64,000 nucleotides of DNA. It comes from a virus. Both the position numbers and the translations under genes were made by a program. The stretch covers positions 1 through 64,000 of the IMG/VR virus record IMGVR_UViG_3300012271_000928; one strand, given 5' to 3'. The notes under the pieces were generated by a model. It saw only the letters and a program-made list of their open reading frames with translations. It ran no database searches and was not told the DNA's origin. Shown piece by piece: positions 4,201 through 33,262 of this stretch (its first letter is position 1; each line of letters starts with the position of its first letter).

Positions 4201-5041
4201 CGGTCGCGGAGAGCACGAACGTCACCGACTCCCCCTCAAAAATGTTGACCGTCCCCGAGTTGAACCCATTCGCCGTGGAAGACGAGATCACCGGAGCGGA
4301 GTTGGCGTCGTTGTTAAAATCGGTACGCTGGCCCGCGTCGATGTCGATCCCATCTCCGTAGAGTGCGACCTCATCAATCACCCCGTCGAAGCGCTGGCCG
4401 TTGTTGTAGGCACCGATCTGGACGTTCTCCGTCCCAAGAGCCGGCGCGGGCACGTTGGCCACCAAGTCTCCGCGTACGCCGTTGAGGAACACTGCGTTGG
4501 TCGTGCCGTCCCAGTTCGCCAAGATGTAGACGAACTCACCCGGCGAGATCACCGAAGGGCTCGTCGCGATCTTGGCCGACGCAGAGTCGTTGTACCAAAA
4601 CTTGATCCGGCCGTCCGGGAGAAGAGAGAGCTGGAAATTGTTCGTGCCCACATTAGTGCCGCGAGACACGAGGACCTCCTCGGAGGCCGGCAAGGCGTCT
4701 ACCTTGATCCAGCAGTCCACCGCAAACTGCGTGAACGCTTGGTTCAACGCTGCGTTGGAGGTCACCGTGATGAAGCCATCCACCCCGTCCAGCTCGATGG
4801 CCGTATCACGCGCGTCGCGCGTCAGCGGGCTAGCCACCCCCCGAGTGATCCCGGTAGAAGTGAGCGTCCCATTGGTCCCATTGGTCGACGTATCAAACGC
4901 AGTCAGCCCTGCCGACTCCTGGAACCTCAGGTACATCAAAGGGTTCTGCCGCAACACAAACGAAGCGTAGTTGAGCCCACCCGGCACGAGCCGGTTGAAG
5001 TCAAAGATCAGGTTTGGGTTGAGGTTGTTGAAATCTGCCAT
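1226..5041 (-). CDS. Giant modular LamG/cadherin-like/PKD tail-fibre or adhesin protein
   Basis: The protein has 1271 residues built from tandem beta modules. A LamG/concanavalin domain lies at about 30-235 (ends FDGVIDEVALYGD). Several cadherin-like or VCBS-type repeats follow at about 250-730, each with a GF.GTDTF.Y-type signature. A PKD domain is at about 740-805 (YTYFWDFGG, then PGVGTYVVTCT), more cadherin-like repeats at about 810-1010, and a second LamG domain at about 1025-1195 (GIVSDFAVYDRAL). The C-terminus is the beginning of an Ig-like repeat that stops abruptly. LamG modules often bind glycans, so a host-recognition fibre is likely. There is no signal peptide, which fits a virion protein. 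Its ribosome site is weak (GCGGGT). Confidence 0.85.
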   Translation of the reverse strand: MADFNNLNPNLIFDFNRLVPGGLNYASFVLRQNPLMYLRFQESAGLTAFDTSTNGTNGTLTSTGITRGVASPLTRDARDTAIELDGVDGFITVTSNAALNQAFTQFAVDCWIKVDALPASEEVLVSRGTNVGTNNFQLSLLPDGRIKFWYNDSASAKIATSPSVISPGEFVYILANWDGTTNAVFLNGVRGDLVANVPAPALGTENVQIGAYNNGQRFDGVIDEVALYGDGIDIDAGQRTDFNNDANSAPVISSSTANGFNSGTVNIFEGESVTFVLSATDPDEDPLTYSFSPDGFTPSVGPQASNTTVVQYLETGVYSPVGFVTDGQANRSRAFPTINVDPVPDLNAFSDFFGTGYRQPRTLNVLSNDSFPPGGLGSINSFTQPANGTVALQGSGESASFLYTPDDTFQDADDTFTYEITNGSGALSQAVVTVSVAAKKPIQTATDRRTISPDTTVTFSPQSNDRPDPPSQTLTVVDVQTPTPEGGSAVVVGNQVQYTPAPGFLGTDTFVYQVQDEDGLLGDGTIIITVKVIQFEAISDSAVCPFEGSVTFGVLGNDTTPFPDPLSVSAITQPPVGEGAAVLNVDDTITYTAPAGFAGTTSFTYTLDDGTRTDVGAVSVRVNNFSPSAVNFRVSAPLDTPREVDPLATATDPEGEVITLTGFTQPSAGVVTRVEGGTPGDLSDDRLLYTPNPGFVGLDSYTYTISDTFGNSTVRTVQVVISYTLNISVSPLSLPVTEVITFSASVTGATGFDKSYTYFWDFGGAGTSTARSGSFQFPGVGTYVVTCTTRDSYGQIESAQVTVQVGANQAPVASDLSVTVAEGEVLNVDPRSNDFDPDGDLFFVSNADPVSAQGGTVSINVGGNVGSVYDDFISYVHPLLATPFVDSFDYEITDEFGLTDTATITVTIEANQAPVALPIFQPVIFQQAAVLNPIALASDPEGDPLKIVSVDSVGVEGNTSLIGTGINNTILFTPATGFLGVATFDFTIEDTFGNRDTSQASVSIFGQFYPALVFGDEPLAYYPLNEASGARAYDVRPLQAHGSYINGVPRDTLGYLAKDLENAARVDSGYVSLPTLAYRNLITGPLTIEMWVNVRAPGASAILGDEIQLLEDGTYSWTLTTTGGTKSLQVSGREVGEPYHLVLTYDGSWMRIYIDGSQEASTPYSGGAALLPTTWDLGRGMQGIVSDFAVYDRALLVTDVLAHYLEALGPVTEYEITAPNGIVSGGDFDLRVRARDVTGKLVTTDSTTQVLMSSDQDVEFDSDGDGTFGEV

Positions 5042-5085
5042 GAGACCCGCCGCGAGAGTGCTTGAACACTCCCGCTATAGACAGA

Positions 5086-5580
5086 CTACCAAAGGCCCGC
5101 GACCAGCGCACCAACAGAGGCCACCACGAAGGCCATGCCTCCGACACGGTAGATCCACGGGCTCGTCCCCGAAGCCTCCGCCGCCTTGCGCAGATCCGTC
5201 TTGGGGTGCAGGCCCAGCGAGTTGGTGAACATGTCCACGACGCCTCCCCCCCACAGCACCACCCACGCCAGAAGGACCCAGCCACCCCAACCCCACCACG
5301 CAGCCAAAGGCATCAGCGTTAGGGCTACCAAGCTCGGAAGACGTGGTGCCATCGAGATCCAGAACTCCTCTCGGGGCTCCGGAGACCTCACCATGTAGTA
5401 GGAGACGCTCGCCCAACGGATGCCTCCCTCGTAGCGGCGAGGCCATGGGTTGATCGTGTAGCGCAGAACGCCGACCAGACGGTCCGCCATCCACACGTGG
5501 GAATGCTCATGAAGCTGCACCCAGATCACATGAGTCAGAGGGATGAGGTAGAGCAGGTGCAGGTAGGTCCAGGGGGACAT
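5086..5580 (-). CDS. Membrane-embedded HExxH (M50-like) putative metalloprotease
   Basis: This 164-residue protein is hydrophobic, with about four membrane segments. An HEHSH motif (HExxH) sits in or next to a membrane helix at about residues 24-28, preceded by THVIWVQL. A later VVDMFTNSLGLHP segment could supply a further metal ligand, as in site-2 proteases of family M50. Intramembrane cleavage of a host or phage membrane protein is possible but inferred. GAGGCG lies before the ATG. The gene ends in TAG, one of few TAG stops here. A non-enzymatic membrane protein with a chance HExxH is the main alternative. Confidence 0.65.
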   Translation of the reverse strand: MSPWTYLHLLYLIPLTHVIWVQLHEHSHVWMADRLVGVLRYTINPWPRRYEGGIRWASVSYYMVRSPEPREEFWISMAPRLPSLVALTLMPLAAWWGWGGWVLLAWVVLWGGGVVDMFTNSLGLHPKTDLRKAAEASGTSPWIYRVGGMAFVVASVGALVAGLW

Positions 5581-8630: not shown

Positions 8631-9131
8631 ATGGGCCAATATTACCGACCAGTCATCCTGAATGCTGACGATGAGGTTACCGCCTGGGTGCGGTGCTACG
8701 ACTACCAGAACGGCGCCAAGCTCATGGAGCATAGCTACCTCGGCAACAACTTCGTGATGGCCGTGGACATGCTCCTGCTAGAGAACGCTCAACGTCTCGT
8801 CTGGGCGGGCGACTACGCCGAGGAAGACTACTACCTGCGGTGCACTGAAGAGTCTAAGAAGACACCTCTCGCAGGCGCGCGGCAGCCCCCTTACGTTATC
8901 AACCAGGACAAGAAGACGTACTTCAACCGCGATGAGGTCCGAAAAGACCTGGAAGGACACGTGCTGGACCCGCTCCCCCTGCTCACTGCTCTGGGGAACG
9001 GGAGAGGGGGCAGAGACTACCGAGGCGCCGATACCGAGGACGTGGGCATCTGGGCAGGTGACCGCATTCGAGTGAGCTTCACCAAGCCCTCCGAGGAGTA
9101 CGCGCGGGATTATTTCTTCTTCGCTATGTGA
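8631..9131 (+). CDS. Hypothetical protein, MGQYY type
   Basis: The 166-residue protein starts MGQYYRPVILNADDEVTAW and continues HSYLGNNFVMAVDMLL and RLVWAGDYAEED. Proteins with this beginning are seen in phages and bacteria without known function; that is recollection, not a search. It is one of only five confident plus-strand genes and has its own promoter-like site. Its 3' end overlaps the convergent minus-strand gene by 8 bases. The ribosome site is weak. Confidence 0.75.
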   Translation: MGQYYRPVILNADDEVTAWVRCYDYQNGAKLMEHSYLGNNFVMAVDMLLLENAQRLVWAGDYAEEDYYLRCTEESKKTPLAGARQPPYVINQDKKTYFNRDEVRKDLEGHVLDPLPLLTALGNGRGGRDYRGADTEDVGIWAGDRIRVSFTKPSEEYARDYFFFAM

Positions 9132-9423
9132 GAAGCGCGCTCTTGAGCTTGAGCCGGTCCGCGTACCACAGGACACGGACGTCTCCGATCACGCTCTCCA
9201 GCCTATGAGACTTGCAGTGCTCAGGTAACCCTACCTGAGCCCGCGTGATCGAGTGACGCTCAGAGTCTGAAAGCCGATAGAGGCCTCCCGAAGTCTCACC
9301 CTGAGCTGCGAGGGCGTCCCGAACATACGAGAGCCTTGAGAGCACCAGATCCTCAAGAGAGGTAAACGCACATTCGAGCTGCGGCCCGTGCGGACCTTCC
9401 CTACGCAACACCCAGACCTTCAC
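9124..9423 (-). CDS. Hypothetical protein (GTG start)
   Basis: The 99-residue protein starts at GTG 9423 with GGAGG six bases upstream. It shows KVWVLRREGPHGPQLECAF and DVRVLWYADRLKLK, a mixed alpha/beta pattern with no recognised family. It ends in TAG and overlaps the end of the convergent plus-strand gene. Confidence 0.65.
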   Translation of the reverse strand: MKVWVLRREGPHGPQLECAFTSLEDLVLSRLSYVRDALAAQGETSGGLYRLSDSERHSITRAQVGLPEHCKSHRLESVIGDVRVLWYADRLKLKSALLT

Positions 9424-9571
9424 TCCAGACCTCCGCCCTCATGCCACCGACCACACCGCACGCATATTTGATAGTACCGTACAGGGTGACGTGAGCCCGA
9501 ACGTACAAGCGGCCTCATGCCAAAGGGCACCCACCAATGGAAGCCCAGACGACATCTCCAGGGTACCTTCG

Positions 9572-9952
9572 TCACGATGAATTTCCTCGCGCAGCCAAGT
9601 CCGCCTGCATTTGAGCGTGCTCAACGCGAACCTTCTGGACCGCTTCAGGCACATCGGTGGGGGGCACCTCACCGGGTGCATTCGGCAACAGGTACCACTG
9701 AGTGGCGTCATCCTGGGGAACCGAAGAGAACCCCCAAAACGATCCATGTCCGTCAGGCACGGCAGGGACATACCACCCCAAGCTTCCCCCTTCCTCCAGA
9801 GGAACACTCGAAGGCAAGAGATCACGCCCTACCTCATCATGCACGCACGCAACGCACCTGAGCATGTCATCTACCAAAAACACGGCGGACTTTCGGTAGA
9901 GCTTACAGTCACATGCTCCACATAGACCGCACCGATACGGGTATTCACTCAC
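9572..9952 (-). CDS. Zinc-ribbon hypothetical protein
   Basis: The 126-residue protein has an N-terminal cysteine cluster, CGLCGACDCKLYR followed by LRCVAC, at about residues 8-35. The CxxC pairs suggest a zinc ribbon. The rest is acidic and unrecognised. It starts at GTG 9952 with GGAG eight bases upstream and overlaps the stop of the preceding gene, so it is coupled to it. Confidence 0.7.
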   Translation of the reverse strand: MSEYPYRCGLCGACDCKLYRKSAVFLVDDMLRCVACVHDEVGRDLLPSSVPLEEGGSLGWYVPAVPDGHGSFWGFSSVPQDDATQWYLLPNAPGEVPPTDVPEAVQKVRVEHAQMQADLAARGNSS

Positions 9953-10172
9953 TGTCAGTCTCCTCTAGATGCTTTTGAACTTCTGCCAACGTGGACGGAG
10001 CACGGCCCGTGTCCTCCATGTTGATCTCGTCAAGAGACGTCACCGTGCTCCCCAGGAGACGAGCGATCTCTTCCCACGTCACGGTGTGACCCTCGACCAG
10101 GAGGCGCCCGGTGTCGCCATCATAGACCGCCTCCCAATCGCCACTCTCCGCACACACGCGCACGAGGTTCAT
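9945..10172 (-). CDS. Small acidic hypothetical protein
   Basis: A 75-residue protein (MNLVRVCAESGDWEAVYDGD, later TVTWEEIARLLG). The IARLLGSTVTSLDEINME stretch might be a short helix-turn-helix but is too weak to name. GAGGGGG precedes ATG 10172, which overlaps the upstream stop as ATGA. Confidence 0.65.
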   Translation of the reverse strand: MNLVRVCAESGDWEAVYDGDTGRLLVEGHTVTWEEIARLLGSTVTSLDEINMEDTGRAPSTLAEVQKHLEETDSE

Positions 10173-10375
10173 AGGACCCCCTCTTGGTTACGGGTATAGG
10201 CCCCGTGTGCGAAGTACGAGGCCACCAGCAGCACGAGGCTACAAGGAATCAGCAGAATCAAACCTGCGGTGACCTCATCAATGAAGTAGTCAAGGCGGTG
10301 AAACGTTACAGCCTTGGATACCTCACCTGCACCCGAAAAGACCTGCTGGATATAGCCCACGGCGCGAACGCACAC
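10169..10375 (-). CDS. Small single-pass membrane protein
   Basis: Up to 68 residues with one strong membrane helix near the C-terminus (AGLILLIPCSLVLLVASYFA). The reading is supported by its ATGA overlap with the next gene. The start is uncertain: the GTG at 10375 has no clear ribosome site, and the true start may lie inside. Confidence 0.45.
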   Translation of the reverse strand: MCVRAVGYIQQVFSGAGEVSKAVTFHRLDYFIDEVTAGLILLIPCSLVLLVASYFAHGAYTRNQEGVL

Positions 10376-10650
10376 AGGTTATTGAGGAAAGGTTGCCCAC
10401 GACGTGGGGGCTCAAAACCGCGAATCATACACCACCCTCGGACTGGACAGACTCCCACAGCGCCACACTTAGCACCGCAGGAGCTGCCATGCCCATGTAA
10501 CATACCATAGACATCGCACCCCCGACAAGCGAGATGCCCATGGAGACGACATCTGAATACGGCCGAGGGAGGGGGCGCGATACACGCTCCGAGATGTGAC
10601 CCGCCACCGTGCTTACGAGCTGACTCGGAAGGGGCGCCACGTGTGTCAAG
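10376..10650. other. Leader-distal flank of the CRISPR array, no confident gene
   Basis: The 275 bases between the small membrane gene and the array contain no frame with a convincing ribosome site. A short hydrophobic minus-strand frame (MGISLVGGAMSMVCYMGMA) is possible at 10425-10541, but it has no Shine-Dalgarno sequence. Confidence 0.5.
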
Positions 10651-11166
10651 GGGACATCCCCGCGTGTGCGGGGAGGGGTTGACCGAGCACTGCTTCAGGT
10701 TGTCGATGTGGGGGACATCCCCGCGTACACGGGGAGGGGAAAACTTCTCCTGGGGGGTCTCTGCGGGCGCGGGGGACATCCCCGCGTGTGCGGGGAGGGG
10801 TTCCATCACTGCGCAGGAGCCGATGGCGGCGACGGGACATCCCCGCGTGTGCGGGGAGGGGTGCGCGACACAAGTCGTACATAAGCTCATTGCGGGGACA
10901 TCCCCGCGTGTGCGGGGAGGGGTGACTCCGAGACCTCCGAGAGTGAGTCGCCGAGGGGACATCCCCGCGTGTGCGGGGAGGGGAAGCACGTCCGCGTCGG
11001 GCTGGTCAAAGCCAAGGGGACATCCCCGCGTGTGCGGGGAGGGGCCCGTCGTCTGGACCGCCGCTGACCTTATGGAGGGGACATCCCCGCGTGTGCGGGG
11101 AGGGGAACTCATGGCGAGATGGTCTCCCAGGTCATACGGGGACATCCCCGCGTGTGCGGGGAGGGG
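10651..11166 (-). CRISPR. Type I-E-like CRISPR array, 9 repeats and 8 spacers
   Basis: Nine 28-base repeats start at 10651, 10712, 10773, 10834, 10895, 10956, 11017, 11078 and 11139. The period is exactly 61, giving 33-base spacers (or 29 and 32 if a common leading G is counted). On the plus strand each repeat reads GGGACATCCCCGCG, then TGTG, then CGGGGAGGGG, with the CCCCGCG/CGGGG hairpin of type I-E repeats. The second repeat differs in its loop (GTACAC), as expected at the old, leader-distal end. The leader lies at the high-coordinate side, so transcription runs leftward. No cas gene is visible in the window. Confidence 0.97.
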
Positions 11167-11310
11167 TCTGTGCCAAGAAGTCACATGCGTTAGATCGCGT
11201 AAGTATTCGGTTTTCAAAGACTTTCAGGGTTCAGTGTCAAAGAGCGTCACTCTTGGGCGACCCTCTTGACGTCCTTACGGTAACCTTGGTGAGGGAGACA
11301 TGTCAAGCTG
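11167..11310 (-). promoter_or_regulatory. CRISPR leader (copy 1)
   Basis: About 140 bases directly beside repeat nine; a near copy lies beside the lone repeat at 15208-15345. On the minus strand TTGACA, 14 bases, then AGGTTACCG gives a promoter that would transcribe the array. The duplication supports the leader call, because only the leader and the repeat are shared between the loci. Confidence 0.8.
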
Positions 11311-11373
11311 TATTTGACACGACGGTATCCAGTACGCTATTAACAGGGCACACCGTAACCAAGAGGCACCCCT

Positions 11374-12165
11374 ATGAGCACACGTGAAGGTCTCCGAGCC
11401 AAGCTCTCCACACTCCCCCTGAAGCTCAAGCCCTACGCAGAGGTTGACCTCGAACGGGACTGCAAGCTCATGACGGGCTCCGGCTGGATGTTCGAGATGA
11501 TGTCTCGCATGGAGAACGCGATGTGGGGGAGGTGGGGCTACTGGCTCAACGCATGGGCGACCATGCAGCCTCCGACCGAGGCCATCCCTCAGATCGAATT
11601 CGAGAACGCGCCCAACCCCTTCGTGCTCAAGATGCTCGACCACACCCTTGAGTGCTGCACCCAGGGACGCATCCACCGCTACCGCGCCATGGAGTGGCTG
11701 GTGGACTGGATCAGGTGGTCACTGGGAGGGCTCAAGGACAAGCCCGAGAACCCGGTCCCGGAGATCCCGAGCGACGTGATCGCCTATCAGGTGTTCCAGC
11801 TCGACCCCATGGTCCTCTACCCCTACGACTACTTCGGGCACTGGTACGCGGAAGCCGGGCACGGGAAGAATGGAGCTGCGTTTTACCCTACCCCAATGGG
11901 CCTCACCAACCTCATGGAGCGTATCCTCTACGGAAATGACCCCCTCCCCACATCCTCCTCCGCATGTGACCCCGCCGTGGGCACAGGAAGGACCCTCCTG
12001 GCGGCCAGCAACAGCTCCTTACGCCTCTACGGTCAGGACATCGACGCGCGCGTCCTCGCCTGTCTGGAGGTCAATTTCGCGCTCTACGCCCCGTGGGGCT
12101 ATCGACCTCTGCCAGACGCCGTGTGGACCGCTCACTCCTCCTCGAAAATGACCTCCTCTCCATAG
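11374..12165 (+). CDS. DNA methyltransferase-like protein, apparently lacking the catalytic motif
   Basis: The 263 residues include FYPTPMGLTNLMERIL (about 170-185) and the S-adenosylmethionine-binding motif DPAVGTGRTLL (about 200-210), then LYGQDIDARVLACLEVNFALY. This is the order of N6-adenine methylases of the HsdM/Eco57I type. The protein then ends after about 25 residues, and no (N/D)PP(Y/F) motif IV is visible, so it may be truncated or non-catalytic. AAGAGG precedes the ATG. TTGACA with TATTAA 18 bases on, at about 11314-11343, forms a promoter. The gene ends in TAG and its 3' end overlaps the convergent gene. Confidence 0.8.
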   Translation: MSTREGLRAKLSTLPLKLKPYAEVDLERDCKLMTGSGWMFEMMSRMENAMWGRWGYWLNAWATMQPPTEAIPQIEFENAPNPFVLKMLDHTLECCTQGRIHRYRAMEWLVDWIRWSLGGLKDKPENPVPEIPSDVIAYQVFQLDPMVLYPYDYFGHWYAEAGHGKNGAAFYPTPMGLTNLMERILYGNDPLPTSSSACDPAVGTGRTLLAASNSSLRLYGQDIDARVLACLEVNFALYAPWGYRPLPDAVWTAHSSSKMTSSP

Positions 12166-12350
12166 AGCCGCACATTGGACACCGAGAGGCTCATGGAACC
12201 ACGTGAGGGGTAGAGCGTTACCGGAGGACCCTCCAACGACGCGATGAGGGGGAGGTTGTCCGGGAACGGTACCTCCGGCGTCTCCAGCACACCCACCTCA
12301 CGAGCGGCGAGCAGTCTCAAACCCTCCAACCTCTTCTGATCGTCGCTCAT
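12132..12350 (-). CDS. Small hypothetical protein
   Basis: A 72-residue acidic protein (MSDDQKRLEGLRLLAAREVG, ending YGEEVIFEEE) with no recognised family. GGAGCAGTGGT lies before ATG 12350. Its end overlaps the methyltransferase-like gene by 34 bases in convergent orientation, and its start overlaps the upstream minus-strand gene by 53 bases. Confidence 0.6.
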   Translation of the reverse strand: MSDDQKRLEGLRLLAAREVGVLETPEVPFPDNLPLIASLEGPPVTLYPSRGSMSLSVSNVRLYGEEVIFEEE

Positions 12351-12660
12351 ACCACTGCTCCAGGAAAGCGGGGACAGGCTCTTCGACCATCCCGAGTTCT
12401 ACCAAGTATAGACGCAGGGCCTCGTGGGCCTCGTGCGTCCAAGGCGTAAACAAGAGGCCCTCGCCGCCGCCCTCTACCCAAGGCATGTCTACAAACGCAT
12501 CCACACCGAACACGTCTTCAATGCGATCCAAGAGCTGGTCATCCCGGCACGTCTCGTCACCATCCCACAGCTCAGGAGCTACGAGCGTGAAGAGCGTCCC
12601 CGACGGGCGAAGCTCCAGCACCACGAATCGCCACGTTCCCGGACCGGTTTGATCACACAT
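12298..12660 (-). CDS. Hypothetical protein
   Basis: The 120-residue protein has WRFVVLELRPSGTLFTLVAPELW and EGLLFTPWTHEAHEALRLYL, an alpha/beta pattern with no recognised family. Two Met codons lie six bases apart after GGAG; the second, at 12660, has ideal spacing. The start lies directly downstream of a tRNA T-arm fragment. Confidence 0.6.
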   Translation of the reverse strand: MCDQTGPGTWRFVVLELRPSGTLFTLVAPELWDGDETCRDDQLLDRIEDVFGVDAFVDMPWVEGGGEGLLFTPWTHEAHEALRLYLVELGMVEEPVPAFLEQWYERRSEEVGGFETARRS

Positions 12661-12674
12661 ACACATCTCCAAAA

Positions 12675-12714
12675 AAGCGGAGGGGGAGTCGAACCCCCGG
12701 CGCCGCACTCCGCT
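12675..12714 (-). other. tRNA remnant: acceptor/T-arm minihelix
   Basis: On the minus strand AGCGGA, ten bases, then GGGGG-TTCGACT-CCCCC and TCCGCT-TTTTT. The T arm is perfect and the two flanking hexamers pair, but the D and anticodon arms are missing. It looks like a deletion derivative of a tRNA. With the T run it could also act as a terminator. Confidence 0.5.
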
Positions 12715-12750
12715 AAGACACTACTCAAAGAGGGATGGACGCTGCCAGGA

Positions 12751-12930
12751 TCAAGCACCTTTATGTGCGTCTCCATACACTTCCTGGTAAAGCCCCAGGA
12801 GCTGCCGCGCCCCGTGGAGGACCACCGGATAGAAGAGCACGGCGAGGCTGATCACGACACCCGCACGCATGAACTGGAAAAGCTCCACATCCCTTACGGT
12901 GCCCGCCCACGTATACAGCCCGTGTGTCAT
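12751..12930 (-). CDS. Small single-pass membrane protein
   Basis: A 59-residue frame with one membrane helix (AGVVISLAVLFYPVVLHGA, about 23-41) after a short polar N-terminus (MTHGLYTWAG). Its ATG overlaps the stop of the preceding gene as ATGA, typical of coupled genes in this region. No family is recognised. Confidence 0.6.
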   Translation of the reverse strand: MTHGLYTWAGTVRDVELFQFMRAGVVISLAVLFYPVVLHGARQLLGLYQEVYGDAHKGA

Positions 12931-13373
12931 CCAGTCGGCTCCGAGCTGTCGTGCAGGTTCTCGAAGATGAAGCCCGCCTCAAGGAAACGCGCCTTGACCT
13001 CCGACCACCCCGAGCCCGTCACCTCAAAGAGACTCTCCTGGCATTGCCCCTGGAGACCCAAACGCGCGTAACGCGCACCCAGCTCCTCTCGAATCTCCGC
13101 GTTCGTATCCCAATCAGGGTAGGGACCATCCGCACGATCTCGAAGAGCCTGTGAACAGATGTACACCAGAACCAAACCCTCCTCATCCTCATACCCGTCG
13201 TCAGAGAACGTGAAGTACCACGTCCCCTCAACAGTAGTCGGCAAGACCAGAAGGCTTTGAGCCTCTCTCAGAACCGCTTTGGCCTGCTTCAAGGTGAGTC
13301 CCGCCTTCTCCGGGTCCAGCTCGTGCGCTACGAGGAGCGTCAAGTCTCTCAGGACCTCTTCTCGCGTCTTCAT
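12927..13373 (-). CDS. Hypothetical protein
   Basis: The 148-residue protein has a helical N-terminus (KTREEVLRDLTLLVAHEL, then GLTLKQAKAVLREAQ). A beta-rich middle follows (TWYFTFSDDGYED, GLVLVYICSQAL), then a helical end. No family is recognised. Its ATG overlaps the upstream stop (TGATG) and lacks its own Shine-Dalgarno sequence, so it depends on coupling. Confidence 0.65.
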   Translation of the reverse strand: MKTREEVLRDLTLLVAHELDPEKAGLTLKQAKAVLREAQSLLVLPTTVEGTWYFTFSDDGYEDEEGLVLVYICSQALRDRADGPYPDWDTNAEIREELGARYARLGLQGQCQESLFEVTGSGWSEVKARFLEAGFIFENLHDSSEPTG

Positions 13374-13558
13374 CAGGAGGTATCTCGCTGCCGCACGTGA
13401 ATGCTACATGCCACCAAGAAGATCGTGGCGTGAATCCAGCACCTCATGTTGAAGTCTTCGAGGGACTCCGCTTCCAGAGCCGCGAGCTGTTTCGCGAAGC
13501 TCTTTGACTTGAGTAGCACTGCACGGGAGACCCGCCGCTTTCCAATCACATAACTCAT
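13373..13558 (-). CDS. Small protein with C-terminal membrane helix
   Basis: A 61-residue protein with a basic N-terminus (GKRRVSRAVLLKSKSF), a short helix, and a hydrophobic segment near the end (WIHATIFLVACSIHV). AGGGAG precedes ATG 13558. It overlaps the next gene as TGATG. Confidence 0.6.
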   Translation of the reverse strand: MSYVIGKRRVSRAVLLKSKSFAKQLAALEAESLEDFNMRCWIHATIFLVACSIHVRQRDTS

Positions 13559-13579
13559 ACTCTACTCCCTCTTCTCGGC

Positions 13580-13879
13580 TCACGAGAGCCAGTTATTAAC
13601 GTCCGCCTCGAACTCCGGGTACTCCTTGAGCACCGCGTCAAGGGTGCGACCCGTCCCGGTGACCTCCACCAGGACGTCAGCCCCATGTTCGGTGAAGAGC
13701 ACCTCCAGGATATCCCGACCCGTTGCCAGGGCGGTCTGGACAGGCTCCGCGTACACCTCGCGCATGGCTCCGAGGACCCACTCGCGGCACGAGTGTCGAA
13801 GCTCCTCTTCGCGTTCCGCACAGTCCTCAGAACTCGCGATCGCGTGGCGCTCATCGTACTCGCTGTAACCGTATCCCAT
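13580..13879 (-). CDS. Hypothetical protein, first gene of an operon
   Basis: A 99-residue acidic helical protein (MGYGYSEYDERHAIASSEDC, CREWVLGAMREVYAEPVQTAL). ATG 13879 is chosen because GGAG lies about 8 bases upstream and a phage-type promoter sits 40 bases upstream. Longer in-frame starts would overlap the promoter and tRNA. No family is recognised. Confidence 0.65.
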   Translation of the reverse strand: MGYGYSEYDERHAIASSEDCAEREEELRHSCREWVLGAMREVYAEPVQTALATGRDILEVLFTEHGADVLVEVTGTGRTLDAVLKEYPEFEADVNNWLS

Positions 13880-13918
13880 GACCAGCTCCGTGTGTGTCTG
13901 TGTTGTCTTACACACCCT

Positions 13919-13944
13919 ATATACCACAAGGGGGGGCCGTAAAA
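13919..13944 (-). promoter_or_regulatory. Phage-type promoter, shortened spacer
   Basis: On the minus strand TTTTAC, then GTGGTATATAG. The spacer is 11 bases rather than the usual 14 and includes a run of seven C, so a true spacing variant or a homopolymer error are both possible. It precedes the 13580-13879 gene. Confidence 0.6.
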
Positions 13945-13972
13945 ACTCATTCAGATTTTCGAGAGCAGTCCA

Positions 13973-14046
13973 TGCGCCGAGTGGGGCTCGAACCCACAAC
14001 ACGGGGATTTAGAATCCCCTGCTCTAACCCGTTGAGCTATCGGCGC
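13973..14046 (-). tRNA. Candidate amber-suppressor tRNA (anticodon CTA)
   Basis: A perfect cloverleaf is readable. The acceptor is GCGCCGA with TCGGCGC, the D arm GCTC/GAGC, the anticodon stem GGGGA/TCCCC and the T arm GTGGG-TTCGAGC-CCCAC. The loop is TTCTAAA, so with U33 in place the anticodon is CTA, which reads the UAG stop codon. The discriminator is A. It lies downstream of a tandem structured repeat, and the promoter at 14318 points towards both. Confidence 0.85.
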
Positions 14047-14054
14047 TAAAACCT

Positions 14055-14306
14055 CGCAGAAGACTCCGGTTGTACGGCCGGAGTCCTCCTGTAGCCCTTA
14101 TTAGGAGCGTCGTGTCAGGCAGCGGTATCACCCGCGTTCCGTCACCGAGGTGCTTGCCTTGAGTCAGTGTTTCCAGAAGCTGTGTGCTCCGCAGAACTGT
14201 CCGGTTATACGGCCGGAGTTCTTTGTAACCCTTACTAGGGGCGTCGTGCTAGACAGCGGTTTCATCCGCGTTCCGGCACCGGAGCTGCTCTGTCCTCACT
14301 GACTGA
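14055..14306 (-). repeat. Tandem ~115-base structured repeat, possible ncRNA
   Basis: Two imperfect copies (14055-14169 and 14190-14306, period 135) share blocks such as TCCGGTT.TACGGCCGGAGT, GCGTCGTG and CAGCGGT.TCA.CCGCGTTCC. Each copy can form a CCGG/CCGG hairpin and a GCGG/CCGC hairpin. No open frame uses it. A phage-type promoter lies directly upstream on the minus strand, so it is probably transcribed together with the tRNA at 13973. Confidence 0.75.
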
Positions 14307-14317
14307 AGACACCCCCT

Positions 14318-14346
14318 ATATACCACAAGAAAGAGACCCTGTAAAA
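14318..14346 (-). promoter_or_regulatory. Phage-type promoter for the tandem repeat and tRNA
   Basis: On the minus strand TTTTAC, exactly 14 bases, then GTGGTATATAG. The next features downstream are the tandem structured repeat and the CTA tRNA, not a coding gene. Confidence 0.7.
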
Positions 14347-14353
14347 CTACTTC

Positions 14354-14575
14354 TCACTCTTCTTCCGAGGAGTCGTGTTCGGGACGGGCGGCGGAAAACG
14401 CGTTCAGGAAACGCTCCCGTCGCGCCGCACCCTCGGAGGGCTTCCCGAGCTGAGCTTGGAGGTACGGGATAATAGCCGAAGAGGCGGCGGGACGGCCTGA
14501 CCCCCTTGAGAGTGCCTCCAGGATTTGATTGCTGCGCGAGGTACGCCCCACGGAGCCGTTATCTTCATTCGACAC
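14354..14575 (-). CDS. Small hypothetical protein (GTG start)
   Basis: A 73-residue polar protein (SNEDNGSVGRTSRSNQILEAL, PSEGAARRERFLNAFSAARP) with a disordered look. GTG 14575 is chosen because GGAGG lies five bases upstream; it overlaps the preceding stop. No family is recognised. Confidence 0.55.
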   Translation of the reverse strand: MSNEDNGSVGRTSRSNQILEALSRGSGRPAASSAIIPYLQAQLGKPSEGAARRERFLNAFSAARPEHDSSEEE

Positions 14576-15110
14576 GGGGACCTCCACGTTCATCCAAGGC
14601 ATCACGGCCCTTCTGAGTAAGGGTCATCGTCGGGCCGCTCAACTTCACCTGCTCCCAGGTCGCCAACTCGCCTATGGCATAGCTCAAGGGCTTGAGATCC
14701 GGGGCGGCCACGCGAGCCTGAGCCGAATCCATCACAAGCACGTGCCAACGCTCCCCCGTCTTGTCTACGAGACGACACAAGCTCTTCGCATCCAGGGCTC
14801 CGTGTATCCACAGGAGCGACAAGATCGTGAGATGCACATCTTCCAGGGGATAGGTCACCACACTCAGATCACCCTCTCCCGCAGGGTCACTTGGATCACG
14901 AGGGGGAGGCGGCTCAAACTCCGTGAGAGCGCCCTCCTGGGATGTAAGACCCCATTTACGACGCAACGACACCCGCGTGTCCCGTATCAGGCGGCCTATT
15001 CGCACCGTCTTGACGTACTTCCAGCAGGTGATGCTCCAGATGAGCACAAGCAACACGAACACGCTCACGAGAGCATACGATACCCACAGAGCGGACGATT
15101 CCCACCCCAT
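14565..15110 (-). CDS. Membrane-anchored protein with winged-helix-like C-terminus
   Basis: The 181-residue protein has one N-terminal membrane helix (LWVSYALVSVFVLLVLIWSI, about 8-27) followed by a basic stop. A Pro-rich linker (EFEPPPPRDPSDP) follows. The C-terminal part (LTILSLLWIHGALDAKSLCRLV, later LTQKGRDALDE) resembles a winged helix. GGAGG is spaced six bases from ATG 15110. Function is unknown. Confidence 0.65.
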   Translation of the reverse strand: MGWESSALWVSYALVSVFVLLVLIWSITCWKYVKTVRIGRLIRDTRVSLRRKWGLTSQEGALTEFEPPPPRDPSDPAGEGDLSVVTYPLEDVHLTILSLLWIHGALDAKSLCRLVDKTGERWHVLVMDSAQARVAAPDLKPLSYAIGELATWEQVKLSGPTMTLTQKGRDALDERGGPRVE

Positions 15111-15179
15111 CACAAACCTCCAGTCACGTCAAAGGAGCGTGCCCGTTGTACGAACTGCGCGGCATCAAAGTGCATCCAC

Positions 15180-15207
15180 GGAACATCCCCGCGTGTGCGG
15201 GGAAGGG
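15180..15207 (-). CRISPR. Lone CRISPR repeat without spacers
   Basis: One 28-base repeat matches the main-array consensus except at two positions, and keeps the CCCCGCG/CGGGG hairpin. It is followed by a second copy of the leader. No further repeat or spacer lies on the other side, so this is a repeat-plus-leader locus with zero spacers. Confidence 0.85.
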
Positions 15208-15345
15208 TCTGTGCCAAGAAGTCACATGAGCGGAATCACGTAAGTACTCAGTTTTCAAAGACTTCTCAGGTTCAGCGCCGTTCGGTGTCACCCTTGGGCG
15301 ACCCTCTTGACGTCCGTATGGTAACCCTGAGGAGGGAAACCTGTC
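15208..15345 (-). promoter_or_regulatory. CRISPR leader (copy 2)
   Basis: Nearly the same sequence as 11167-11310: TCTGTGCCAAGAAGTCACAT, later GTTTTCAAAGACTT, then TTGGGCGACCCTCTTGACGT. On the minus strand TTGACA, 14 bases, then GGGTTACCATA forms the matching promoter. Confidence 0.8.
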
Positions 15346-15462
15346 AACATGAGCAAGCTTCGCTTCCGCCAATTGCTTCAAATGCGCATCCCTCAACCCG
15401 AACCTCCTGTCACAGTGTGAGTCCGAAGAGAGAGGATACCTCGAAGTCACACACCTGTCAAG

Positions 15463-15533
15463 CTCTGGGACCGGGACTTGAACCCGGAAAGATTGGTTAA
15501 CAGCCAATTATGATACCATTTCATCATCCCAGA
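15463..15533 (-). tRNA. tRNA-Asn (anticodon GTT)
   Basis: The acceptor TCTGGGA pairs with TCCCAGA, the anticodon stem ATTGG with CCAAT around loop CTGTTAA, and the T arm is CCGGG-TTCAAGT-CCCGG. The discriminator is G. The D arm is short. Confidence 0.88.
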
Positions 15534-15560
15534 AGACGATCACGTTACCGCGACCGACAG

Positions 15561-15645
15561 GGTGTCGGGAAGGAGTCGAACCTTCATACCTCCGAAGAGG
15601 AACTGGGCCACACGGAGGCGAGCCTGCCAATGCTCAACCGGACGC
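15561..15645 (-). tRNA. tRNA-Tyr-like gene, chimeric (3' half mismatched)
   Basis: It has a type II layout with a long variable arm (CCTC-TTCG-GAGG), D arm GAGC/GCTC and T arm GAAGG-TTCGACT-CCTTC. However, its acceptor strands (GCGTCCGG and CCGACAC) and anticodon strands (CCTCC and CCAGT) do not pair with each other. They pair with the opposite strands of the neighbouring gene at 15651-15734. The loop reads GTGTGGC. It is probably non-functional as a separate gene. Confidence 0.6.
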
Positions 15646-15650
15646 CCAAA

Positions 15651-15734
15651 TGCGCCGGGTAGGAGTCGAACCTACAGGTCTCCGAAGAGAACCCTCGCTA
15701 CAACCAGCCGAGCTTACCAATGCTCAACCGACAC
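15651..15734 (-). tRNA. tRNA-Tyr-like gene, chimeric (anticodon GTA)
   Basis: The acceptor GTGTCGG pairs with CCGGCGC only with two G-U pairs, and the anticodon stem GCTGG does not pair with GAGGG. The loop TTGTAGC carries GTA. Variable arm TCTC-TTCG-GAGA and T arm GTAGG-TTCGACT-CCTAC are intact. Its 5' half pairs perfectly in the acceptor with the 3' half of the gene at 15561-15645. Confidence 0.6.
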
Positions 15735-15738
15735 GCAA

Positions 15739-15819
15739 TGCGTTGGGCAGGACTCGAACCTGCACGCCCGAAGGACCGGGGCTACAACCCGGCGAGCCAG
15801 CCAATTGCTCAACCAACGC
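15739..15819 (-). tRNA. tRNA-Tyr (anticodon GTA)
   Basis: The acceptor GCGTTGG pairs with CCAACGC, the D arm is GAGC/GCTC, the anticodon stem CCGGG/CCCGG surrounds loop TTGTAGC, and the T arm is GCAGG-TTCGAGT-CCTGC. It has a type II variable arm and discriminator A. This is the intact member of the group of three. Confidence 0.92.
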
Positions 15820-15848
15820 AGATCACGAGCCTCACACGCTCGCGACAA

Positions 15849-15899
15849 TGACCTCTCACGGAATCGAACCGTGACCCGCAGGGGGAGACACCCCCACGT
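15849..15899 (-). other. 3' half of a tRNA (anticodon arm, T arm, acceptor strand)
   Basis: T arm CACGG-TTCGATT-CCGTG is followed by acceptor strand AGAGGTC and preceded by a GGGG/CCCC hairpin with loop GTGTCTC (GTC, aspartate). No matching 5' acceptor or D arm exists upstream. Instead the sequence runs into a decayed CRISPR repeat and leader, so the 5' half was replaced. Confidence 0.55.
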
Positions 15900-15960
15900 A
15901 GGTGAGGAAAAGTCTGCGACAAGAAGTCATTGCACGTGTGTAATCGAGAGACGTAGTGCT
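15877..15960 (-). repeat. Decayed third CRISPR repeat and leader copy
   Basis: CCCCCACGTAGGTGAGGAAAAG followed by TCTGCGACAAGAAGTCATTG parallels the repeat end and leader start of the lone-repeat locus (GGGGAAGGG, then TCTGTGCCAAGAAGTCACAT). Similarity fades after about 60 bases. It overlaps the anticodon arm of the tRNA half. Confidence 0.45.
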
Positions 15961-15975
15961 CTCATTCCCAAAAGA

Positions 15976-16545
15976 TTACTCCTCTCCGTCGTCCATATAC
16001 ACATCATCAGGCCCGCGAGCATTCAACAGGAGCAACTGAGCACCCAGGACGTCCAGCGCGCCGTAGAGCGACGACGCGGCGCCGTGAGCGTCCTCCAGAC
16101 ATGCTTGGTAGCACGGCTCACCATCTCGCATCTCGACAGACAACAAAACGTCCTCTCTCGCCGTACGTAGTACCGAAGGGGGGAGCACCGTCGAGGAGGG
16201 GCCCTTGAAGCCCATGAGCAGGACCCCAGCGCTCTTTGCGTGGCGCTTGAAGCCGTTGTAGCGCTGAATCAGTTCCCGATGCGAGGATTCGCGTTCAGGG
16301 TACTCGACCGCGTGGGTACGAGTAGGGCCGACGTAGCTGAAGCGAGGGCCTTCATAGCCGTACTCCGGCTTGTCCACGTGCTCCAGGAACATCTCAACAG
16401 GACGTGCCCACAACTCCCCAGAACGATCAGGCCGATGGTACACGGCTACAGGAGAGTCGCCTTCCGAATGCCTAGCGACCCCTACCAGAAAGTAGAGGTC
16501 ACCCTTGAAGTGGCGGTAGTAACCGGGCACCGGTTCAGTAGTCAT
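15976..16545 (-). CDS. DUF1653 domain protein
   Basis: The 189-residue protein has a DUF1653 domain at about residues 7-60: GYYRHFKGDLYFLVGVARHS, then VAVYHRPDRSGELWARP and MFLEHV. This family is common in bacteria and phages and its function is unknown. A longer C-terminal part (VLLSVEMRDGEPCYQACLED) is unrecognised. Its ATG overlaps the upstream stop as ATGA. Confidence 0.82.
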   Translation of the reverse strand: MTTEPVPGYYRHFKGDLYFLVGVARHSEGDSPVAVYHRPDRSGELWARPVEMFLEHVDKPEYGYEGPRFSYVGPTRTHAVEYPERESSHRELIQRYNGFKRHAKSAGVLLMGFKGPSSTVLPPSVLRTAREDVLLSVEMRDGEPCYQACLEDAHGAASSLYGALDVLGAQLLLLNARGPDDVYMDDGEE

Positions 16546-17126: not shown

Positions 17127-17173
17127 GATCGCGCTCCGTCAGAAGGGGTGTGTCGTTTCGTCTCTCACCTCTC

Positions 17174-17202
17174 ATATACCACAACAGGTATGGGGCGTAA
17201 AA
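17174..17202 (-). promoter_or_regulatory. Phage-type promoter
   Basis: On the minus strand TTTTAC, exactly 14 bases, then GTGGTATATGA. It lies upstream of the 16542-17126 gene, in the gap after the previous gene. Confidence 0.7.
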
Positions 17203-17208
17203 AAAGAC

Positions 17209-17634
17209 TTACCAGCGCACGTCCTGGATGATGTACGTGATCCACACCTGACGCTCTCCGTTACGAGCATCAAGACCCACAACGGTATGACACCACGGGT
17301 TCTCCTTCGGATCTGCCGAGATACCCTCCCAGGTGACCACGGGGTTGGCGAAGCTGCCCCCAAACCCAGGCGCTGCTATGATTTGGTTGAGCATTGTACG
17401 GACCTCAACCGGATCGTGAGCGGCAACCACACCCTCCCACACGTCCCCAGACAACTGACACTCTGCGAATCGACGCAGGGGGTCACTGTGCGGAGTGTAC
17501 TCGGCCTCCCAAACCTCCGCCGTAATGGCCTCGAAAGCGTCATGCGAGAAGATGTAGAGGTGGAAGATCTCCACACCATCCTCATGATACAGGTACTCGA
17601 CCGGCTCAACTGAATTCGTTGGTGCAGAACTCAT
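17209..17634 (-). CDS. Hypothetical protein
   Basis: The 141-residue protein (VEYLYHEDGVEIFHLYIFSH, EVRTMLNQIIAAPGFGG, RQVWITYIIQDVRW) somewhat resembles its downstream neighbour in layout, suggesting a related pair. Start 17634 is chosen over an ATG six bases earlier because of GAGG spacing. It overlaps the upstream gene by 29 bases. Confidence 0.62.
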   Translation of the reverse strand: MSSAPTNSVEPVEYLYHEDGVEIFHLYIFSHDAFEAITAEVWEAEYTPHSDPLRRFAECQLSGDVWEGVVAAHDPVEVRTMLNQIIAAPGFGGSFANPVVTWEGISADPKENPWCHTVVGLDARNGERQVWITYIIQDVRW

Positions 17635-29505: not shown

Positions 29506-29816
29506 TGCGCAAACCATGGGTGTGCCGTGACTCCCCGACCGCCGCAGTCGTCACATGGAGGATGAGAATAGAGAACCCCCTCGCCGCCACACGCGCCACA
29601 CTCAAGGTCGTAGAGGACCCCTTGGTAGTCACACCTCGCGCAGCCGTCCGGATCTTCCCCGTCTCCTTCCCCTCCGCAGGCCGGACACGGAATCTCTTCC
29701 AGGAAGCCATCCCCCCGACAGACCTCGCACTCGGTCTCCAGGAGGAGATCCTTTCGGACCCCCTCCATCATACAGACCTCGCACTCGACGAGCATTGTGG
29801 GAGGCATGGGACTCAT
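29502..29816 (-). CDS. DnaJ-type zinc-finger protein
   Basis: A 104-residue protein made of cysteine motifs: CEVCMMEG, CEVCRGDG, CPACGGEG, CARCDYQG, CGACGGEG and CDDCGGRG. This is the DnaJ central zinc domain, even slightly longer than its usual four repeats, with no J domain. It overlaps the lon stop (ATGAG), so it is made with Lon and may help deliver unfolded proteins; that role is inferred. Confidence 0.8.
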   Translation of the reverse strand: MSPMPPTMLVECEVCMMEGVRKDLLLETECEVCRGDGFLEEIPCPACGGEGDGEDPDGCARCDYQGVLYDLECGACGGEGVLYSHPPCDDCGGRGVTAHPWFAQ

Positions 29817-32800
29817 ACAGACGGCTCCTGGACGAAGGGCTCGGTCACCGGGAGAGCCTTGGTCCAGTCACGAAGAACGTCTCGGAACACCAGCGGCGGA
29901 ATCTGCTCCACGCGGTCCACCGGGTAGAACGTCATTTCGCTGAGCACCAGGGCGTCCACGTCACGCAGGTCCTTGGTACACTGCGAGGGCATGATGACCT
30001 CACGGATGCCCGCGCGATGCGCGGCGATGACCTTCTCCTTGATGCCGCCGACCGGGAGCACCTGACCCGTGAGCGTAATCTCACCGGTCATGGCCACCTC
30101 TCGGCGCAGCTTGAGCCCCGCGAAGCGAGAGAGCAAGGCGCTGAACATCGTGATGCCTGCGGAGGGACCATCCTTGGGGATGGCGCCAGCCGGCACGTGG
30201 ATGTGAAGGTCGTGCGACTTGATCATGTTGGTGTCTACTCCATACAGATCGCCATGCGCACGCAGGTAGCTCAGGGCAGCCCGGACAGACTCCTTCATGA
30301 CGTCTCCGAGCTGGCCCGTCAGCGTCACCTCACCCTTACCCCCTTTCATCGCCTGCACCTCAATGAAGAGGATGTCTCCACCTACCGCCGTCCAGGCCAA
30401 GCCCGTTGCCACGCCCTCCTGATCCTCACGCTGCGACACCTCCGAGATGTACCGAACGGGACCCAGCGCCTTCTCGACCCGCCCCATGTCCAGGGGGAAC
30501 ACCGCACCGAGACGCTCAGCCTCCGGAAGCTTGACGACATCCACAGCGATAGAGCGGCACAGGTCTCCCAGCCTACGGTTCAGGCTACGGACGCCCGCCT
30601 CACGGGTGTACTTGTCCACCACGTGGTGGACCACCCCATCCGCGACCTCGATCTGGTCGGGCCCCAGACCGTGGGCGGCTACCTGCTTGGGGAAGAGATA
30701 GCGAGTCGCGATCTCATTCTTCTCGAACATCGTGTAGCTGGGGACCTCCAGGATCTCCATACGGTCACGCAGCGGAGCCGAGATCGTATCCAACCGGTTG
30801 GCCGTGGCGATGAAGAGGACCTTGGACAGGTCAAGGTCTATCTCCAGGTAGTGGTCGTTGAACGTCGAGTTCTGAGCCGGATCAAGAACCTCCAGGAACG
30901 CGGCGGCGGGGTCGCCTCGGAAGTCCGAGCCCACCTTGTCGATCTCGTCCAGGAGGATGACCGGGTTCATCGTGCCGGCCTTCTGAAGCGCTCGAACGAT
31001 GCGGCCCGGCATGGCGCCCACATAGGTACGACGGTGACCACGGATCTCGGACTCGTCGTGCATACCTCCAAGGGAGATGCGCGCGAACTTGCGGCCCATC
31101 GTCCGGGCAATGGACTTGGCGATGGACGTGTTATGCGTCACAATCACGTCATCAGTGATGTAAAGAGAATCAGGAGCAGAGACCTTGATGCACTGAGTCT
31201 CCTTGACACCTACCGCTACGATATCAGAGATGAACCTCTTGGGAGCGTACTTACTCTTGGAGACCCACCGCTGAGCTTTGGCGTCACACCAGAAGGGACA
31301 CTGACCCGCCGACATTGAGACCGTCACGTTGTACGCCAGACGACCCGAACGCCTCTCCCCATCAACCGTATATGACGGCTTTTTCATCGTCACCCGTGTC
31401 ACCCCCCCAAGCGACCGGACCAACCACTGCACGTCATCACACAATCGCGTCGACGTCGTACAAAAAGAAACCCTACAACCCGTCGCGTCTACAGTACCGC
31501 CAGTGTCCATCAAGCCCTGCAAAAGAGCGAGCCTCTGCTCTACCGAGCCGTAAAGGTACACATAAGGTACATGCTTTTCGTACGAGTAGAGCCCCGTAAG
31601 TTCCAGAGCATCCAGCTCCACCTGCAACGCGTCCCGTACAGACCCCTTTCGCCCTGCGGTCAAACGATAGTCACAGGTCTCCGACGCTTGCTTGCGCATC
31701 CGAACCTCCCCCGGCAAGGCGGCAGCTACGCGTGCGCAAATATCACCCTCTGGGTTTGAAAAACCAACGGAAGCTCCCGTAAGGCCTCCATCTCCCAAGA
31801 GCGCCCCCAAGAGGTACGGGTCAAGGGGTACGGACTTTTCCGCAAACTCCAAGGGCTGGGTCAGAGGGATAGAATGGTTGCGGCGAGCGTCCGAGCCGTA
31901 CCGAAGCGTCTCTCGGATTTGCTCCAGAGACTTCACCGACCCCTCACGGGAAGCCTTCCGATCGAGGTCGGTATGCGTGTACCACAAGTGCTCGTCGCAA
32001 CACTCTGTTGATGAGCCGTCTTGAAACTCCACACGATACACCGGCCGCGTGCCTTGAGGGAACGCGCCCTCCACGTGATGAACGCCCCCGTCCGCACCCA
32101 TGACCGCATCACCTACCGCAAGCGTACCCATCGCAACCCAACCCTTCGGGGTCAACACCCGCGCATCCAAAGGCTGCGCCTTGCCCACACCGGGAGGGCC
32201 CACGAAGCACAGGATCGGGCCGTTCATGTCCTGCTTGAGCGCCTGAACAGCCAGATGCTCGACCACCCTTCGCTTCACCTTCTCCAGGCCGTAGTGGTCC
32301 GCGTCGAGCACATCCTCCGCGCGGACGACATCCAGGTTGTCCTCGCTCTCGACGCCCCACGGCACATCGAGCATCTGCTGGATGTAGTTGAGCGTCACCG
32401 AATACTCGGAGCTGGCCGGCTGCATCGCGTCGAGTCGACGATGCTGCTTCAGGACCGCAGCCTCCACCTCCTCAGGCATGTCTGCCTCCTGAATACGCTC
32501 AAGCAGCTCCTCCGTCTCGGAGATGTCCTCACCGAGCTGGTCCTTGATGACCTTGAGCTGCTGGCGAAGGATGTACTCACGCTGAATAGACTTGCTGCGC
32601 TCCTGGAGCGACTGGTTGATCTCACCCGCCAGCTCCTGGCGCGCGATACGCTCCCCCAGGATGCGCAGACACCGAGACGCGCGCTCCGTGATGTTCGGCT
32701 CCAGGTAGAGAGCCAACAGGTCCTCATCCTCGAAGCGGGGCGCGAGCATGTCTGTAAGGTCTGAGAGGGAGCCCACAGCACGCACGCGCTCGAACTCCTG

Positions 32801-33262
32801 CTCGGGAGCGTCCGGATCGTCTCCCAGGACCTGAAGCGTCTTCTCCTGAAGCGCCTCGAACAGCGCTTCATTGTACTCCGCCTCCTTGTCGAACTCCGGT
32901 CCAATGACCTCGAAGTGACCCATCAACGGCGCGGAGGCATCCTCCGGAATCTCAAGATCCAGGAGCCTCAGCCTCACCTCCCCGGAAGAAATGACCGTAT
33001 AGTCGTTCGCGTTCGGGTTCGGGATGATCTTGATGCAGGACACCAGGGTCGCGATCTCGTGGACCTCATCCATCGAGGACAGCGTGAGCACGTCCGGAGA
33101 CTTCTGAAGCACGACCGCGATCTTGAAAGGCGCCGGCGAGTCTGCACCCTCAATGACCGCCAGGGAGCGTGCTCGACCGACCCGAACAGGGATCATCTGT
33201 AGCGGGAAAAGAGGGTTCTCGCGCATGGCGATCACGGGAAGGTACAGGGTGTCAGCGCTCAT
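29813..33262 (-). CDS. lon: ATP-dependent protease Lon, interrupted by an intein
   Basis: 1149 residues: 799 of Lon extein plus a 350-residue intein. The N-terminal substrate domain begins [21 protein letters not shown] helical region runs about 190-300. Walker A GPPGVGK ends at residue 361 and its T resumes at 712. Then come Walker B (VILLDEID), sensor (ATANRLD) and the proteolytic domain with the Ser-Lys dyad ([10 protein letters not shown] and [14 protein letters not shown]). Lon degrades misfolded and regulatory proteins. In phages it could remake the host proteome or process phage proteins. Activity needs the intein to splice. Start GTG/ATG at 33262. Confidence 0.96.
31130..32179 (-). 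mobile_element. Class 3 intein with LAGLIDADG endonuclease in Lon P-loop
   Basis: Intein residues 1-350 (Lon 362-711). It starts with Ala, not Cys or Ser. Block B has CCDEHLW (Trp66), block F has TQCIKV (Cys330), and it ends VTHN (Thr348, His349, Asn350) followed by Thr. Trp-Cys-Thr with a non-nucleophilic first residue defines class 3 inteins. [11 protein letters not shown] (about 123-133) and [13 protein letters not shown] (219-231) are the two LAGLIDADG endonuclease motifs, so it may still be mobile. Confidence 0.93.

Follow-up and report, generated by a model that had tools for sequence, protein, structure and literature searches.

A type I-E-like CRISPR array in a jumbo phage lineage that probably encodes its own interference system

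What use would a phage have for an array of clustered regularly interspaced short palindromic repeats (CRISPR) when no cas gene is in view? The question is raised by a locus at positions 10650–11166 of IMGVR_UViG_3300012271_000928, a linear virus record of 127,707 bases (hereafter ‘the record’), the first 64,000 positions of which are the stretch of DNA analysed here (hereafter ‘the window’). A preliminary description of the window held that the array would have to borrow the Cas proteins of a host. We consider it likely that the window is part of a jumbo myophage lineage, with genomes of about 437 kilobases (kb), that has its own type I-E interference system and many dispersed arrays; the phage is probably armed itself, rather than taking the whole weapon from its host.

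The locus is a genuine CRISPR array: nine near-identical 29-mers stand in strict register, far beyond chance, and unique spacers lie between these evenly spaced repeats. The period of exactly 61 described before was confirmed; seven of the nine repeats are identical, one deviates at its last base and another (at 10711) at three inner bases. The latter had been taken for a degenerate leader-distal repeat; it is the next to last from the distal end and not the terminal one, keeps its hairpin despite three differences in 29 bases, and is identical to a standard repeat of the arrays in a related contig (G001, introduced below). Because the conserved flank lies on the right, the array is read as transcribed on the minus strand, from right to left. 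On that strand the repeat CCCCTCCCCGCACACGCGGGGATGTCCCC folds at −14.3 kcal/mol (z = −2.7), and a repeat in the range of 28–29 nucleotides (nt) with a stable hairpin, combined with 32-nt spacers, is the arrangement of type I-E arrays. The leader previously described with its promoter is indeed present on the right side and conserved in several copies, and the end given earlier (11310) roughly takes it in; the promoter is a putative TTGACA-18 nt-TACCGT element that recurs in other leaders of the same class (class 1, below) and was not called by a generic sigma-70 promoter scan.

Genes for a terminase, a portal protein and a tail sheath in the record bear out the proposal that the array is phage-borne. 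The terminase leads to 40 IMG/VR contigs, several of them 370–470 kb long, of which the closest, G002 (437,490 bases), is 67% identical; 104 of the 136 open reading frames (ORFs) of the record used as queries map in order to 132.4–277.3 kb of G002. The exact repeat led to another contig, G001 (IMGVR_UViG_3300012271_000005; 125,429 bases), 72 of whose 127 ORF queries map in order to G002 from 403.2 kb to the end and to its first 94.3 kb (0–94.3 kb), so that the footprints of the record and of G001 are complementary and without overlap. Tetranucleotide composition correlates between the record and G001 at 0.93, as it does within each of them (0.92–0.93), and between the record and G002 at 0.82. 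The record and G001 have essentially no protein in common, which might suggest unrelated phages, but mapping shows that they cover complementary parts of G002. From synteny and composition, they appear to be pieces either of a single genome or of two sister genomes.

No cas gene (Cas1, Cas7e or a homolog of the Cas proteins of G001) was found in the 64-kb window, as had been stated, or in the full 127.7-kb record. G001, however, carries on one strand cas3, cas7e, cas6e, cas5e and a single frame of fused cas8e–cas11e (Cas8e, residues 4–488; Cas11e, residues 580–729), followed by an array. An orthologous operon lies at the same place in G002, again with the Cas8e–Cas11e fusion and with arrays also between the cas genes; G001 and G002 are 49% identical in Cas3 and 27% identical in Cas8e–11e. 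Both contigs therefore encode, outside the record, the type I-E set of Cas8e (Cse1), Cas11e (Cse2), Cas7e, Cas5e and Cas6e. The Cas3 of G001 has the HD (PF18019) and helicase domains and, aligned to solved Cas3 structures (4q2c and 4qqw), retains intact HD, Walker A, DEVH and QR.GR motifs; Cas3 with these domains is likewise present in G002. The cas3–cas8e genes, a search for which elsewhere in the genome had been suggested, are thus lacking from the record and present, as Cas3 and five Cascade subunits, in the complementary contig. Cas1 (PF01867) had no match in 13 phage records, with working positive controls and with Cas2 not searched by a model of its own; as many phage-borne systems are without Cas1–Cas2, the missing Cas1 match does not exclude an I-E effector.

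Since the record is only a fragment of a phage of about 437 kb and its complementary contig has a cas operon, we infer that the genome to which the window belongs carries one too. The earlier view that host Cas proteins must be borrowed is unsupported for interference, for which G001 and G002 encode Cas3 and Cascade; for acquisition, with no Cas1 found, such borrowing may well take place. A more distant jumbo phage of 470 kb has, at 9128–15989, a variant I-E operon with Cas8e, Cas7e, Cas5e and Cas6e, and arrays as well; the Cas3 HD domain was not found in it, and a 743-residue ORF matches the Cas3 helicase model weakly.

The leaders connect the contigs further. Both leader classes of the record recur in G001, and the type I-E-like character first assigned to the array is upheld by the occurrence of the same leaders, in related contigs, beside genuine type I-E cas genes. 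Class-1 leaders end in CATGTGACTTCTTGGCACAGA, with the similar form TGTGACAAGATGTCTCAGA in G002; that of the array has conserved counterparts in G001, where there are four, and in a solitary unit of the window. Class-2 leaders, common to the record, G001 and G002, end in ACATTTGAAGA, immediately followed by GTGTTCCCC, and this core occurs five times in G002. Searches of IMG/VR with the leader patterns gave a match only in G001, and with the class-2 core only in G001 and G002. A generic repeat scan of the remainder of the record located a two-repeat array at 71709–71798 (repeat GTGTTCCCCGCGCGAGCGGGGATGTCCC) with the other leader class. The solitary unit (15179–15347), which is absent from the preliminary description, emerged when the record was searched with the array: it is an 83% identical copy of the leader and one repeat, and no further repeat was found at this site (Table 1).

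Table 1. Coordinates of the array, its leader, the solitary leader-repeat unit and the adjacent gene (positions in the window).
Feature	Position	Strand	Description
CRISPR array	10650..11166	−	Nine 29-nt repeats and eight 32-nt spacers; start-to-start distance exactly 61
Leader-distal terminal repeat	10650..10678	−	Canonical sequence
Variant repeat	10711..10739	−	CCCCTCCCCGTGTACGCGGGGATGTCCCC; differs at 3 of 29 bases; hairpin kept
Leader-proximal repeat	11138..11166	−	CCCCTCCCCGCACACGCGGGGATGTCCCC; hairpin with 7-base-pair (bp) stem and 4-nt loop
Class-1 leader	11167..11306 (right end approximate)	−	Ends ...AAGTCTTTGAAAACCGAATACTTACGCGATCTAACGCATGTGACTTCTTGGCACAGA beside the first repeat
Promoter-like element of the leader	11277..11306	−	TTGACA (11306–11301), 18 nt, TACCGT (11282–11277)
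Neighbouring gene	11374..12165	+	Diverges from the leader; weak N6 DNA methylase match (E = 0.0012, below the Pfam cut-off)
Solitary repeat	15179..15207	−	CCCTTCCCCGCACACGCGGGGATGTTCCG; no spacer; hairpin intact
Second class-1 leader copy	15208..15347	−	TTGACA-18-TACCAT; precedes the solitary repeat

The lineage is rich in such elements. Two arrays and the solitary leader-repeat unit lie in the record. In G001 there are five arrays, a single solitary unit behind a class-2 leader (at 27.75 kb) and one partial unit; and G002 has at least ten arrays of two or more repeats, together with isolated repeats. G001 and G002 have in common the array sites that adjoin the cas operon, and remote sites are mostly unshared, so the units move or turn over. 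The repeat hairpin is maintained throughout: all of 98 repeats gathered without any requirement for inner pairing keep the inner stem pair (82 G-C, 16 A-T), whereas shuffles of the distinct repeats gave 85% pairing and none of 2,000 reached the observed level. A set of 50 distinct repeats, most of which had been picked by a hairpin filter, gave the same picture of covariation. This conservation suggests selection on the RNA and fits recognition by Cas6e. Array A of G001 has one repeat variant in its leader-proximal part and another distally, as expected if each acquisition copies the first repeat. Spacers differ throughout the lineage, with one exception: the G002 arrays at 25.9 and 28.7 kb share a spacer at 28 of 32 bases, the four differences all being transitions, which is a sign of array duplication.

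We propose that each array would be transcribed from its own leader promoter and that the Cas6e of the phage would cleave every repeat hairpin, after which the CRISPR RNAs (crRNAs) would load onto a phage Cascade of Cas7e, Cas5e, Cas6e and the Cas8e–Cas11e fusion, and matched DNA would be degraded by the phage Cas3. Its likely enemies would be competing mobile elements, or defence loci of the host, that the phage encounters as it infects. New spacers would probably join at the leader end through the action of host Cas1–Cas2 in trans, the simplest source given that no phage Cas1 is detectable. Leader-repeat units free of spacers, such as that at 15179–15347, would best be understood as landing sites, empty or re-seeded, of which copies have spread through the genome. 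On a wider and more tentative view, which we regard as possible rather than probable, the lineage would have a distributed adaptive immunity, with a single phage I-E effector serving at least ten arrays of two leader classes, and with mobile promoter-leader-repeat cassettes acting as landing pads filled in trans by host or other integrases.

Whom the spacers address was sought in several collections. Against 50,697 phage and 72,556 plasmid records they had no significant match, the only hit being one of 24 nt to Rhodococcus opacus plasmids (E = 0.3, chance level), which leaves the competing phages and defence plasmids suggested as targets without support. Two spacers of the array, searched as exact 28-mers in IMG/VR, were not found. 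The leader-distal spacer agrees with an SbcD/gp47-like gene of G002 at 24 of 32 bases, which is not significant over 112 spacers, and translated spacers, compared with 435,000 residues from phage relatives, showed no clear excess over shuffled ones (P = 0.07). Neither the exact repeat nor the class-2 leader core occurs in 84,980 cellular genomes; for a host in Myxococcota or Bradymonadota, as had been suggested, nothing speaks in favour of either group.

Some of these results weigh against a phage with its own interference system: no spacer has a significant target, and interference is to that extent not demonstrated. To this are added that the contig of the window itself is without a cas gene; that G001 is tied to the record via composition, leaders in common and the synteny of both with a third genome, the DNA that would join them not having been seen; that the survey of adaptation genes included no model specific to Cas2; and that, according to Al-Shayeb et al. 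2020 (PMC7162821), repeats like those of the host occur in some phages that have no interference genes, and these phages may rely on Cas proteins of the host. The phage could have lost its cas genes, or never have had any, and feed its crRNAs to a type I-E system of the host. The 127.7-kb record without a cas gene fits this explanation, the mini-arrays of archaeal viruses are a precedent (PMC6858448), and the isolated Saccharomonospora phage PIS 136 (JX006077) has two I-E-type arrays (approximately 2047–2252 and 4882–5092) that are not annotated and whose leaders are closely similar, a search of that phage for Cas1 and Cas7e having found neither. We nevertheless think it unlikely: the record is a fragment, syntenic cas operons are present in both genomes with a matching backbone or matching leaders, its class-2 leader array resembles that adjoining the cas operon, and no cellular genome among the 84,980 has the exact repeat or the leader core. 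That the array is a host array joined to a phage contig during assembly is hardly credible; repetitive arrays could mis-join contigs, but the record has three separate CRISPR loci, related leaders stand beside phage genes in two other phage contigs, and none of the cellular genomes contains the leader core.

Other explanations concern the solitary unit and the growth of the arrays. The unit at 15179–15347, and perhaps the short arrays, could be RNA anti-CRISPRs (Racrs) that jam the type I-E Cascade of a host. Known Racrs consist of a promoter followed by a solitary repeat (PMC10651486), and this unit is likewise a solitary repeat behind a putative promoter, with its hairpin intact and a leader in front. 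An array of nine repeats whose spacers all differ is, however, no decoy; a decoy resembling the repeats of the phage would titrate its own Cascade too, and the unit retains a full leader, as expected of an acquisition site, so that we hold a Racr role to be decidedly unlikely. It is also conceivable that the phage encodes an unrecognised integrase other than Cas1 or that its arrays grow by recombination alone, for no Cas1 is found by model and yet spacers differ at conserved array sites, leaders show strong conservation across the lineage, and a diverged spacer is common to two arrays of G002. We give this little credence, as the homogeneity of repeats at the leader end is what host Cas1–Cas2 acting in trans would give and no candidate enzyme was found. 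A phage-encoded I-E effector supplied with spacers in trans is the reading that we retain.

Elsewhere in the record, a promoter-like element of about 60 bp (GTGTGT..CTTACACACYCTATATACCACAAGGGG..GTAAAAA or its complement) lies at 13889–13952 and 17146–17210 of the window; with at least two copies in the record and about seven in G001, it is probably a lineage-specific regulatory motif. A transfer RNA (tRNA) with a CTA anticodon (13973–14046; called as tRNA-Pyl) is a possible amber suppressor; since TAG still terminates six of 57 long ORFs in the record, there is no sign of wholesale recoding. At 15561–15820 lie three tRNA-like units in tandem, each about 90 bp long, of which only the last is called (tRNA-Tyr); the first two have weak tRNA-Sec scores and may be decayed or unusual tRNAs. 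The region 29813–33262 encodes a protein of 1,149 residues that is Lon-protease-like at both ends (relatives in phages are annotated lon) and whose central part (approximately 350–720) matches terminase and helicase families and is probably an intein. A protein of the record strongly matches the actin-like family Volactin (PF25216, E = 3.9e-78).

Phage-encoded CRISPR-Cas systems are usually without adaptation genes, and how they gain spacers is an open question. The lineage described here combines dispersed arrays, two leader classes, spacer-free units, repeat switching at the leader end and identified effector genes, and this combination makes acquisition in trans directly testable. Already known are phage CRISPR-Cas without Cas1/Cas2 (PMC7162821), phages with several arrays (PMC12607003) and leader-bearing arrays of archaeal viruses that have no cas genes (PMC6858448). 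In the open-access literature, the scope of this comparison, no jumbo-phage type I-E system that combines a Cas8e–Cas11e fusion with at least ten dispersed arrays was found described; papers behind subscriptions, among them a 2022 survey of CRISPR-Cas encoded by viruses, lie outside it.

The CRISPR-Cas systems of huge phages (Al-Shayeb et al. 2020, PMC7162821) are similar in belonging to jumbo phages, in having interference genes without Cas1, Cas2 or Cas4, and in their compact arrays, for which a median of six repeats was published. The type I example described there is a I-C variant, whereas the present lineage has subtype I-E with Cas8e fused to Cas11e. In G002 at least ten arrays are dispersed over the genome, and the lineage further differs in its solitary leader-repeat units and in having two classes of conserved leader. 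Jumbo phages from landfill (PMC12607003) also have several arrays in one genome (421 kb), some of them away from cas genes, and at most six arrays per phage genome were counted in that survey; the effectors predicted there are of class 2 or TnpB-like, whereas in the present lineage a single I-E operon, of class 1, appears to serve arrays with leaders in common. The fused I-E effector and the larger number of arrays extend the range of viral CRISPR systems. The mini-arrays of the Sulfolobales viruses SPV1 and SPV2 (PMC6858448) are likewise virus-borne, have leaders and probably acquire spacers through host adaptation proteins, but these viruses are cas-less, have one or two spacers and host-like repeats, and their stand-alone repeats are without leaders, whereas the solitary repeat described here has one. 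The lytic phage ICP1 (PMC6452262) also carries its own class 1 CRISPR-Cas system, in that case of subtype I-F and with both spacer acquisition and the target (PLE) known. Racr units (PMC10651486), finally, share with the solitary unit the order of a promoter and then a single repeat in a phage; the unit at 15179–15347 differs from them in keeping the full leader of real arrays, in a lineage with a Cascade of its own.
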